Shown here: in pieces, positions 23,569 through 60,254 of the stretch | Layout: each line of letters begins with the position of its first letter | How positions within the stretch are numbered: position 1 is the stretch's first letter | From: Candidatus Borkfalkia avistercoris | GTDB taxonomy: Bacteria; Bacillota; Clostridia; Christensenellales; Borkfalkiaceae | DNA: 64,000 nt | Direction of reading: 5' to 3' | Assembly: GCA_019115995.1 (NCBI GenBank) | Contig: DXCL01000042.1 | Location: forward strand, 1 to 64,000 | The notes under the pieces: generated by a model | The model's database searches: none | Told to the model about the DNA's origin: nothing | What the model saw: the letters and a program-made list of their open reading frames with translations, nothing else | Program-made: the position numbers and the translations under genes

Positions 23569-23790
23569 TCAGTCTTTGGTCATATGGAGCGTGCCGTTTT
23601 CGATCTCTTGGCATGCGAGGGCGATCTCCTTCACGTTGCCGGGAAGCTCTCTGATGCCCTGATTCTGCTCCTGATCGATGATCTGGCGGGCGCGCTTCGC
23701 CACCACTACGCACAGCGCATAGCGGGAGGCGGGGTGTTCCTTCGATCCCAATTTTTCTACAAGACTGTCCACAGAAGGCTGATTGATCAT
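23569..23790 (-). CDS. rpoZ: RNA polymerase omega subunit
   Basis: A 73-residue protein, MINQPSVDSLVEKLGSKEHP followed by ASRYALCVVVAKRARQIIDQ, which is the conserved omega core that helps assemble beta' of RNA polymerase. The RBS GGAGGT precedes the ATG. In Bacillota it normally follows gmk; here a 393-bp structured, non-coding element replaces gmk between yicC and rpoZ. Confidence 0.93.
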   Translation of the reverse strand: MINQPSVDSLVEKLGSKEHPASRYALCVVVAKRARQIIDQEQNQGIRELPGNVKEIALACQEIENGTLHMTKD

Positions 23791-23815: not shown

Positions 23816-23990
23816 ATTCACGAAAACCTCGGCGGGACGACGCCTGCGGTTTTCCGTGATCTGAGGGCTCTGCCCTCTGCGGCGCGCTTTTTGAGGGCAC
23901 GCCATAACATGCGCGCCGCATTCACCTGTTGAGACCGCAGGTATGCGGCAAATTGAGTGCGCTTTTTGAAAAACGTGGTTTTCAAACGCG
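23816..23990 (+). ncRNA. Candidate structured RNA unit, left copy
   Basis: In order: P1 CACGAAAACC (23819-23828) with GGTTTTCCGTG (23848-23858), enclosing GGCG/CGCC. P2 GAGGGC-TCT-GCCCTC (23863-23877). P3 is a perfect 10-bp stem, TGCGGCGCGC (23878-23887) with GCGCGCCGCA (23911-23920), around a 23-nt loop containing GAGGGCACGCCATAA. Then comes TTCACC and P4 CCGCA/TGCGG (23935-23947). P5 follows in 23957-23990 (GTGCGC arm, TTTGAAAA/TTTTCAAA, CGCGC arm). Whether it is transcribed is unknown; no clear promoter was found. Confidence 0.5.
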
Positions 23991-24014
23991 CTTTTGATTA
24001 TTTAAATATTTGTT

Positions 24015-24208
24015 CGCGCAAGGGAAATCGCAATTTTCCGCAGCGCACCCCTGTTGGGCAACGCTTTGCCTTACGGAAAGGGTGAATGTCCGCGATTTAT
24101 TATTATGTGTGCCCTTAAATATCGCGGACAGAGGGGAAAGCCGTTCGGGTTTCCCCTCAAATCATGGAAAATCGCAGGCGTCAGCTCGCCGAGATTTTCG
24201 TGAATGAA
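24015..24208 (-). ncRNA. Candidate structured RNA unit, right copy
   Basis: Read on the minus strand from 24208. P1 is CACGAAAATC/GATTTTCCATG. P2 is GAGGGGAAA/TTTCCCCTC (24131-24158). P3 is TGTCCGCGAT/ATCGCGGACA (24087-24096 with 24121-24130), a perfect 10-bp stem around a 24-nt loop with TAAGGGCACACATAA. Then CATTCACC, P4 GGCAA/TTGCC and P5 GTGCGC...GCGCG. It starts directly after the yicC stop codon, so it would be part of the yicC 3' UTR if transcribed from that promoter. Confidence 0.5.
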
Positions 24209-25084
24209 TTATTCTACATTCTGTATCTGTTCGCGTACCTTTTCTATCTCGTTTTTAAGCGCCAGCCCGCTGTTCGTAACGGAAAGGTCGTTGCTCTTGG
24301 AGCACACGGTGTTCGCCTCGCGGTTGAACTCCTGCACCAAAAAATCGAGTTTTCTTCCCACGCGCTCCTCTTTGCAGATGGAGCGGAACTGCAAGATGTG
24401 CGATCTGAGCCGGGTAAGCTCCTCGTCGATATTGGATTTGTCCGCAAACACGCAGACCTCCGTCAGGAGCCGCCCTTCGTCGAAGTCCGTGCCCGAAAGG
24501 ATCTCTTTCATGCGCTCCTCCAACTTCTTGCGGTATTCCTCCGCAACGAGCGGCGCGCGCGCCGAAATATCGGCCACGAGCTTTTCGATATTGTCCATGC
24601 GGGCGAGCATATCCTCCGCGAGCTTTCCGCCCTCTTTCAGGCGCATCGCGTTCAGATTGTCGAGCGCGCCGTCGAACGCGCAGATGAGCGCGGAAACGAG
24701 TGCCTCGTCCGCCCCCTGCACCTCTTCCTGCCGAACGACGTCCGGGCACTTCATCAGCGCGTTGAGCGTAAAATCGTCCGCAAGGGAAGAAAATTCGCGT
24801 TTGAGCGCGGCCGCGGCTTCCGCCCAGCTCTTGGCTGCGGGCATATCCACATACAGGTTTTTGGGCTTTTCCCGCTTGTCTACGAGGTTGATATAGATGT
24901 CCGCATGCCCGCGCGTGAGCTTTTTGCGCACCGCGGAACGGATCACCTCTTCGTAAGCGTTAAAGATCTTGGGGCTCTTTACGGAAATATCGAGATAGCG
25001 GTTGTTGACCGTTTTGATCTCCACCGTCATATCTATGCCTTCCGCCTTATACTCCCCTTTCCCGTAGCCGGTCATGCTGAACAT
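24209..25084 (-). CDS. yicC: YicC/YloC-family endoribonuclease
   Basis: A 291-residue protein. MFSMTGYGKGEYKAEGIDMT and IKTVNNRYLDISVKSP form the conserved N-terminal block. EELTRLRSHILQFRSICKEE and GRKLDFLVQEFNREANTVCS form the C-terminal block of the family, now known as RNases acting with PNPase/sRNA. It is normally followed by remA and gmk; here both are missing and the twin structured element follows. A long structured 5' leader lies between its promoter and the ATG. Confidence 0.92.
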   Translation of the reverse strand: MFSMTGYGKGEYKAEGIDMTVEIKTVNNRYLDISVKSPKIFNAYEEVIRSAVRKKLTRGHADIYINLVDKREKPKNLYVDMPAAKSWAEAAAALKREFSSLADDFTLNALMKCPDVVRQEEVQGADEALVSALICAFDGALDNLNAMRLKEGGKLAEDMLARMDNIEKLVADISARAPLVAEEYRKKLEERMKEILSGTDFDEGRLLTEVCVFADKSNIDEELTRLRSHILQFRSICKEERVGRKLDFLVQEFNREANTVCSKSNDLSVTNSGLALKNEIEKVREQIQNVE

Positions 25085-59498: not shown

Positions 59499-59648
59499 AA
59501 AACTCCTGTGCGCGCCCGTGCGCGCGTTTTACGCGCAACGCCGCGGCAAAGCGCTCTGACAAAATATTTTCCGCATATTTTTCCGCAGGGAAGAGCGGGG
59601 ATTTTGCAAGAAAAAGGAAGTGCAAAATTTTGCGCGGAGAGGGGCAAA

Positions 59649-60254
59649 CTATCGCTTTTTTGCCCGATTTTCCTTCGCCGGAGTATCCGCCCGACGAAAG
59701 CGCGCGCGCTCGATGCCCTCTATCTTCTTTTTTGCGCGCTGTATGGCATTGTCTGCCGATTTTACCGAAACGGCGCGGCGCGCGGCGATGTCTGCCACGG
59801 AAAGCCCTTCCATGTACAGCAGCAGCGCCTCGTACTCGCTGGCGGAAAGGGAAGAACGCACTTTCTGCCAGAACTCCTCCGCCTCCTCCCCCGCGATCAG
59901 GGAGGATTCGGGGTCTTCGGGAGAGGCGATGTCTTTGCCCTCCCCTTCGGGGAAGGGCACGCCGTCGTTGAGGGGGGAATGCTTTTTGCGCGCGGCGCTC
60001 TTGACCGCGCTCATGATGCGGCGGCGGATACAGAGGTACGCGAAATTCTTGAAGCTCATGCCGCCCTCTTTGAAATCGGTAACGGCCAGATACAGCCCGA
60101 TCATGCCCTCCTGAACGAGGTCTTCCGTTTCGCCGCCTTCCAGAAAAAAGCTGCGCGCGCAGCCGCGGACGGCGTTTTTGTACTTTTCGAGCAGGGTGCG
60201 CGTGGCGGCGCTGTCTCCGCGCTGTGCGGCGAGGGCGAGCTGTTCGTCCGTCAT
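59649..60254 (-). CDS. sigH: RNA polymerase sigma factor SigH (sigma-30 type)
   Basis: A 201-residue sigma-70 family factor. MTDEQLALAAQRGDSAATRT, DLVQEGMIGLYLAVTDFKEG (region 2.2) and SFKNFAYLCIRRRIMSAVKS (region 2.4) are followed by region 4 SASEYEALLLYMEGLSVADI and AARRAVSVKSADNAIQRAKK. Size and position behind rlmB match SigH, which starts sporulation or competence programmes. ATG 60254 overlaps rlmB by four bases; the frame upstream of it runs over rlmB and is not coding. Confidence 0.92.
   Translation of the reverse strand: MTDEQLALAAQRGDSAATRTLLEKYKNAVRGCARSFFLEGGETEDLVQEGMIGLYLAVTDFKEGGMSFKNFAYLCIRRRIMSAVKSAARKKHSPLNDGVPFPEGEGKDIASPEDPESSLIAGEEAEEFWQKVRSSLSASEYEALLLYMEGLSVADIAARRAVSVKSADNAIQRAKKKIEGIERARFRRADTPAKENRAKKR

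Follow-up and report, generated by a model that had tools for sequence, protein, structure and literature searches.

The site between yicC and rpoZ in Candidatus Borkfalkia avistercoris, where gmk would be expected, raises the question of what lies in it. Within the stretch that was analysed (the window; 64,000 nt, positions 1 to 64,000 of contig DXCL01000042.1, assembly GCA_019115995.1), this site holds a 393-nt element that an original prediction, made from the sequence alone, had described as a pair of structured units in the place of gmk. Our analysis places the element in a dispersed, multicopy family, probably of mobile DNA repeats that are non-autonomous, mosaic and built of several hairpins and that behave like bacterial interspersed mosaic elements (BIMEs) and REPINs, the hairpin-forming doublets of repetitive extragenic palindromic (REP) sequences.

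A dispersed family of five-hairpin units

Two homologous units of ~190 nt, tail to tail, occupy window positions 23817-24204, with five hairpins each in identical order. Read from the head, a unit consists of TTCAC, the hairpins P1, P2 and P3 (the last with an AGGGCAC loop), TTCACC, the hairpins P4 and P5 and an A/T tail; P1 closes on GTGA in unit A and on ATGA in unit B. This order, the tail-to-tail arrangement, the P3 arms, the GGGCAC loop of P3 and the CATTCACC after it had all been named in the original prediction, and all are present in the sequence of the two units. The 393-nt stretch folds with z-scores of -13.1 and -13.4 on the two strands, a stability that none of 100 shuffles matched; part of it stems from the outer arms of the element, which are 60 nt long and 83% complementary. 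For the same reason the minimum-energy fold is one long hairpin, inside which the local hairpins are present on the + strand. A kissing contact between the P3 and P5 loops was rejected: judged by eye, unit A agrees with it only in part and unit B does not.

BLAST with the window element returned 57 matches in its own genome, counting both strands of inverted parts, several of them at contig ends. Counted by coordinates, the stretches fetched from this genome hold no fewer than 53 distinct units that reach 60 nt, and 47 of these reach 110 nt. In a set of 81 genomes, 35 were matched, all inside the window's genus, Borkfalkia. A covariance model (R1) built from 17 units matched unit A at 23817-23959 (86.8 bits) and unit B, itself among the 17 rows, at 24047-24204 (177.2 bits). 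The same model matched 36 of 40 genus genomes, the exceptions being G002, G005, G033 and G038 (genomes, fetched loci and contigs are labelled G, L and C), with 68 matches in the own genome and a range from 0 to at least 74 per genus genome, 74 being the most candidates scored in any one genome; these numbers, like those for the sister genus below, include weaker matches to the opposite strand of a unit and so are not unit counts. Matches were found in 7 of 151 genomes in an even sample of the order, the own genome included. A sister genus was matched in 27 of its 31 genomes, with up to 73 matches. Five of six genomes of a genus in another family gave weak matches (E 7e-10 to 9e-4); at two of its loci P2, P3, TTCACC and P4 are recognisable and the P5 loop is similar by eye, while the head hairpin differs. 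Outside the named genera there were single weak matches in G061 and G113. An exact-pattern scan of GTDB contigs gave 39 stretches, titled Candidatus Borkfalkia stercoripullorum or uncultured Clostridia bacterium.

A phage or plasmid origin was rejected, as one exact pattern found 0 stretches in viral_contigs and distant BLAST with the window element found no match among phages and plasmids. In Rfam 15 the window element remained below gathering (best, hya RNA, 24.5 bits against 56.8), and the only matches in five loci with other units were two tRNAs, in line with the earlier claim that no known RNA class applies. The original prediction had named as refuting a lack of further copies and covariation, or a hit to a transposon end or an Rfam family; in the part of this check that was run, copies and covariation both turned out to be abundant, with no Rfam match at threshold. 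Its argument against a mobile repeat fails, since the family is dispersed and multicopy. We found no description of the repeat family in open-licence PMC papers, where a description under another name would escape. The family adds a large set of interspersed repeats to the Christensenellales, gut Clostridia on whose repeat biology nothing turned up in the literature searched.

Rules of orientation and partner choice

When a profile hidden Markov model was applied to the fetched loci, 376 different unit sequences emerged, and 175 pairs of neighbours lay no more than 330 bp apart. Not one of the 175 is head-to-head, and once pairs with a common sequence around the joint are removed, the 169 that are left comprise 73 tail-to-tail and 96 tandem pairs. 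Covariance-model matches transferred by hand, a set that omits many weaker overlapping opposite-strand matches and the duplicate loci L138 and L149, divide into 35 tail-to-tail, 54 tandem and 0 head-to-head, and stricter detection gave 0 head-to-head pairs out of 71. Laxer detection produced three apparent head-to-head pairs, each of which depended on one or more poorly paired hairpins attributable to chance (scores 9-11). Heads thus face outward, in the direction of the genes. Among 22 islands of units, judged with crude open reading frame (ORF) calls, 40 sides have a predicted gene, which is at most 25 nt away in 21 of them. Some sides are tails or extend to a distant ORF, and the neighbouring genes may be co-directional, divergent or convergent.

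The joints have their own signatures. Tail-to-tail joints carry TTTAAA in 29 of 73 cases, another A/T palindrome in 27 and neither in 17. In tandem joints ..TTTGNG tends to be followed by TTCAC; the head could be placed in 53 of the 96, and in 43 of these a G precedes it.

Inverted partners tend to be unlike. Where both units exceed 110 nt, 1 of 59 inverted pairs is more than 80% identical, against a mean of 6.4 with shuffled partners (0 of 200 shuffles as low), and 13 of 58 tandem neighbours reach this identity. With up to three mismatches allowed, the P3 arms agree in 2 of 36 inverted pairs where 9.2 would be expected, none of 5000 shuffles being as low; for tandem pairs the figures are 8 of 35 and 9.5. 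Three stricter mismatch limits gave 0, 0 and 1 of 36 inverted pairs against 2.2, 2.9 and 4.7 expected, results that point the same way but are less well supported (0.085, 0.044 and 0.038 of the shuffles were as low). Assembly failure at perfect palindromes could contribute to this rule.

In the sister genus, L170 (G190:C16) carries head-to-tail tandem units with identical P3 stems. At L022:838-877 and L032 ~957-1000 the P1 slot resembles a perfect terminator hairpin for both directions (A-run, GC stem, T-run) and keeps TTCAC and GTGA at its borders.

Turnover of units between genomes

Comparison of orthologous sites indicates that unit content changes. Genome G008 carries one extra monomer (L184), from TTCAC to TTTGAG, directly before a TTCAC that it shares with the own genome, G000 (L036). 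Orthologous intergenic islands are kept between sister species with different unit content, two comparisons (L185/L177 and L193/L180) show an inverted-looking order by eye, and at one orthologous site units are present in G026 and G008 with none recognisable in window 59500-59721.

Of 20 places fetched from G201, a genome of the sister genus, 18 held a monomer. The monomers are alike (median pairwise 87%, up to 98%) and have unrelated left flanks (median 45%), the likeness being biased upward because the 20 places were taken from the listed high-scoring matches among 73. By eye, several heads sit a few bases after a stop codon. Among the units fetched, there is a tendency to be closest to units of the same lineage: those of G015 have a median best identity of 91.0 within the genome and at most 82.0 to six other genomes, and those of G035 have 85.8 within and at most 79.6 to other genomes. 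Units are common to the close trio G000/G026/G008 and to the pair G012/G017.

Other sequences accompany some units. The G201 monomers (e.g. L316, L320, L315, L325) often precede a second dispersed hairpin, CCTCCCCTTCGAGGGGAGG or near; at L034:841-1102 the P3-P5 parts of a unit occur twice, ~190 nt apart, within another repeat with GTGCAGAACGGTGC; and at L026 ~800-1300 a small open frame, helix-turn-helix-like by eye, lies between two units and is surrounded by degenerate hairpins that resemble heads.

Covariation and base-pair chemistry of the stems

Of the cells in the 17-row alignment, 95.2% are paired, a share that falls to 33-51% when the partners are slid, and both sides have changed in 22 of 43 pairs. 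Cells with a double change number 110; shuffles give 37.4, none of 500 reaching 110, and the slid controls 7-23. A one-sided change occurs in only 2 cells. Further pair types do not exceed those of shuffles, 303 of 500 being at least equal, and P2 is nearly invariant in this set. The slid controls somewhat favour the structure, because rows that share one P2 form were selected and the structure came from these rows. The local stems of homologous units thus covary, as had been claimed. The original prediction had taken this as a sign of selection on local RNA or single-stranded DNA structure; the covariation stands, and the RNA side of that reading is weakened by the chemistry of the pairs.

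The 157 distinct P3 hairpins, which have 64 different 10-nt arms, comprise 1413 cells, 94.7% of them Watson-Crick, with 13 G-T, 14 A-C and 48 other; 86 distinct P1 hairpins are 97.8% Watson-Crick (G-T 2, A-C 8 and other 3, of 602), and 66 P5 hairpins 90.7% (G-T 29, A-C 7 and other 45, of 872). That hairpins were picked by good pairing raises the paired fraction and gives A-C no advantage over G-T. For comparison, 24 tRNAs predicted from the same DNA, at least one of which looks spurious, have G-T in 23 of 257 pairs (8.9%), A-C not being comparable here as the annotator draws standard pairs only. The G-T share of P3 (0.9%) and P1 (0.3%) is about a tenth of this or less (p <1e-10). Selection on RNA normally goes via G-U intermediates. 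As G-U is scarce in P1 and P3, and A-C equally frequent, the chemistry points to stem structure at the DNA level, or to arms matched by copying, rather than to RNA. This is also a caution, since strong covariation alone would have suggested a structured RNA.

Could the stems be free of selection on structure altogether? Arms matched by copying, through quasi-palindrome correction or template switching, with entire hairpins shuffled among dispersed copies by gene conversion, would account for double changes with almost no one-sided intermediates, for the finding of one P1 with different P3 types, and for units that are alike within a lineage and differ at orthologous sites. We regard this as possible but doubtful: loop and joint motifs are fixed while the stems turn over, and copying alone does not predict the orientation and partner rules.

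An RNA element selected for its folding, whether as an operon-internal processing site, a stabiliser, a terminator or a small RNA, appears quite unlikely to us. It would suit the nearness of island sides to predicted genes, often between co-directional ones, the terminator-like P1 slots of L022 and L032, the several loop and joint positions that surpass the P1 and P3 stems in conservation, and the P5 stems, in which G-T exceeds A-C. Against it stand the rarity of G-T in P3 and P1, far below that of tRNA and no higher than A-C, the islands that also lie between divergent and convergent predicted genes, and the lack of an Rfam family at threshold.

A mobile repeat as the favoured reading

In the mobile DNA repeat that we favour, the building block is a directional monomer of ~145-200 nt, made up of a (G)TTCAC head, five hairpins whose loops and joints are conserved, and an A/T-rich tail (ATTATTT). 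In favour of this reading are the many copies, their likeness by lineage, the near-identical monomers between unrelated flanks in a sister genus, the single monomer cleanly present or absent at an orthologous site, the common orientation of tandem neighbours, the lack of head-to-head pairs and the stems that change as pairs. The hairpins may form in single-stranded or extruded DNA, where an enzyme supplied in trans could recognise the loops and joints and place the monomer head against gene ends or before an existing TTCAC. Whole hairpins would be exchanged between copies, leaving the stem sequence free provided that both arms match. Near-identical inverted partners would presumably be lost because they would form long palindromes.

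Several observations weigh against this reading. The single-monomer difference between L184 and L036 is readable as gain or loss, and most compared orthologous sites hold units in both species, so that recombination turnover at old sites explains part of the pattern. No target duplication was recognised by eye at the compared sites. In the own genome (88.6% complete) no mobiliser was found among Y1, TnpB, IS110 and reverse transcriptase (RT), other enzyme families not having been searched. Y1 transposase above cut-off is absent from it, with one short sub-cut-off match containing stops; across the genus, Y1 is above cut-off in 22 of 40 genomes, with no match in the unit-rich G026, G032, G035 and G009, and ten fetched Y1 loci carry no unit. 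Y1 was rejected as a present partner for its absence above cut-off from the own genome and for these ten loci. TnpB occurs in 0 of 40 genomes and the IS110 DEDD transposase in 5 of 40, the own genome not among them, and RT has no match in the own genome; all three were rejected as partners on their lack of a match there. Lastly, P5 is an exception to the scarcity of G-T, though its excess over A-C is by eye partly due to the GTG common to P4 and P5.

A bolder form of the mobile-repeat reading, which we consider unlikely, would make the family a new class of mobile DNA. Its unit would be a cassette of five interchangeable hairpins served by an enzyme unrelated to known HUH, DEDD and RT enzymes, and its hypervariable stems would keep each monomer folding on itself rather than pairing with its inverted neighbour, stem diversity itself being selected.

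The units might instead be a BIME-like chromosomal element maintained by the host for protein binding, chromosome organisation or transcription termination, with copying as a side effect. Placement near genes, island sites common to several species and occurrence in most of the genus agree with this, yet 4 of 40 genus genomes have no match and the numbers elsewhere are very uneven, and we judge such a role rather improbable. An artefact of short-read metagenome bins is highly improbable: several contigs start or stop inside units, and perfect inverted pairs would be hard to assemble, but the identical anatomy recurs in dozens of bins, deep inside long contigs and between unrelated flanks. Contigs C34, C45, C17, C18, C26 and C10 of G000 start in or near units, and the repeats therefore seem to break short-read assemblies.

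With outward polarity, unlike inverted partners and covarying, G-U-poor stems, the family makes the movement and hairpin variation of REP-like elements directly testable.

The yicC-rpoZ gap and the absence of gmk

The original prediction placed the element exactly where gmk is expected. Guanylate kinase (TIGR03263) is above cut-off in 0 of 40 genus genomes, compared with 10 of 14 control genomes; weak matches in genus genomes fall in open frames of 378-603 codons. We compared the site at 30 loci of the genus, 29 of them with both genes. The gap between yicC and rpoZ measures 29-192 bp in 27 of the 29, the exceptions being the own genome (418) and G008 (716), and the window element therefore sits in a gap that is short elsewhere. 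Full islands occur at yicC-rpoZ only in these two genomes, and G026 has an island beside yicC at a contig start. By eye, a decayed unit is present in G027 (L060) and hairpin remnants in L064, L071, L073 and L087. Because yicC and rpoZ adjoin without gmk where the element is absent, the element did not replace gmk, and its supposed occupation of the place of that gene, like displacement in general, was discarded. The features of the site are collected in Table 1.

Table 1. Features of the element and its flanking genes, in window positions
Feature	Positions	Strand	Description
Unit A	23817..24003	+	Head TTCAC at 23817, tail at centre; P3 type TGCGGCGCGC
P1 hairpin, unit A	23817..23859	+	TTCACG..CGTGA
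P2 hairpin, unit A	23860..23877	+	GAGGGCTCTGCCCTC
P3 hairpin, unit A	23878..23920	+	Arms TGCGGCGCGC/GCGCGCCGCA, loop TTTTTGAGGGCACGCCATAACAT, then TTCACC
TTCACC joint and P4 hairpin, unit A	23921..23959	+	Closing CAC..GTG, inner CCGCAGGTATGCGG
P5 hairpin, unit A	23958..23991	+	Interior TTTGAAAA-ACGTGG-TTTTCAAA
Tail-to-tail joint	23996..24010	.	A/T-rich near-palindrome GATTATTTAAATATT
Unit B	24004..24204	-	Head TTCAC at 24204; P3 type TGTCCGCGAT
P5 hairpin, unit B	24014..24047	-	From sequence
TTCACC joint and P4 hairpin, unit B	24046..24086	-	Closing CACCC..GGGTG, inner GGCAAAGCGTTGCC
P3 hairpin, unit B	24087..24130	-	Arms TGTCCGCGAT/ATCGCGGACA, loop ATTTAAGGGCACACATAATAATAA
P2 hairpin, unit B	24131..24158	-	GAGGGGAAACCCGAACGGCTTTCCCCTC
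P1 hairpin, unit B	24162..24204	-	From sequence
rpoZ, RNA polymerase omega subunit (flanking gene)	23569..23790	-	PF01192
yicC (flanking gene)	24209..25084	-	PF03755/PF08340; stop codon 4 nt from unit B head

Comparison with known repeat systems

REPs as detected in PMC2817692 have a GT(A/G)G head and one GC-rich palindrome, and BIMEs, in the account given there, alternate in orientation; hairpins in single-stranded DNA and compensatory changes are described for REP, BIME and REPIN elements in passages of PMC2817692 and PMC3116915. Compared with the elements of PMC2817692, the Borkfalkia repeat is similar in being extragenic and of high copy number, with palindromic hairpins after a short fixed head and mosaic clusters. 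It differs in its head, which is TTCAC, usually GTTCAC, rather than GT(A/G)G, in its five hairpins per unit, and in that no REP-associated tyrosine transposase (RAYT; Y1) is above cut-off in the own genome, at the completeness given above. Unlike BIME clusters, it has 0 head-to-head pairs in 169 and 96 in the same orientation. REPINs are presented in passages of PMC3116915 as REP doublets that form hairpins, with highly conserved REP ends and a tie to RAYTs; their length is exemplified by the 71 bp between the 16-mers of the GI doublet. In Borkfalkia 73 of 169 neighbouring pairs are tail-to-tail; these doublets are ~390 bp long, their halves are of different stem types, and units also occur singly and in tandem.

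IS200/IS605-type elements have hairpins near their ends, without terminal inverted repeats or a recognised target duplication. The Borkfalkia monomer is alike in all these respects, and at one site (L184/L036) it lies beside a short motif and points the same way as the adjacent unit. Unlike these elements, it is accompanied by no TnpB in 40 genomes and by no Y1 in many unit-rich ones, and the ten Y1 loci are unit-free. Recognition of stem-loops is described for IS200/IS605-type elements in a passage of PMC2817692.

As for the features of classical miniature inverted-repeat transposable elements, the compared islands end in TTCAC..GTGAA or nearly so; the monomers have no inverted ends and no duplication by eye. 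Stem-loop repeat families of bacteria are treated in PMC2267715. The Borkfalkia repeat, intergenic, multicopy and foldable, is comparable by description to such families, bcr1 of Bacillus cereus among them. Since the head motif, a RAYT above cut-off in the own genome and the alternating orientation were not found, it is not a member of the REP, BIME or REPIN families; the best fit that our comparison suggests is a repeat that probably works most like these elements yet belongs to none of them.
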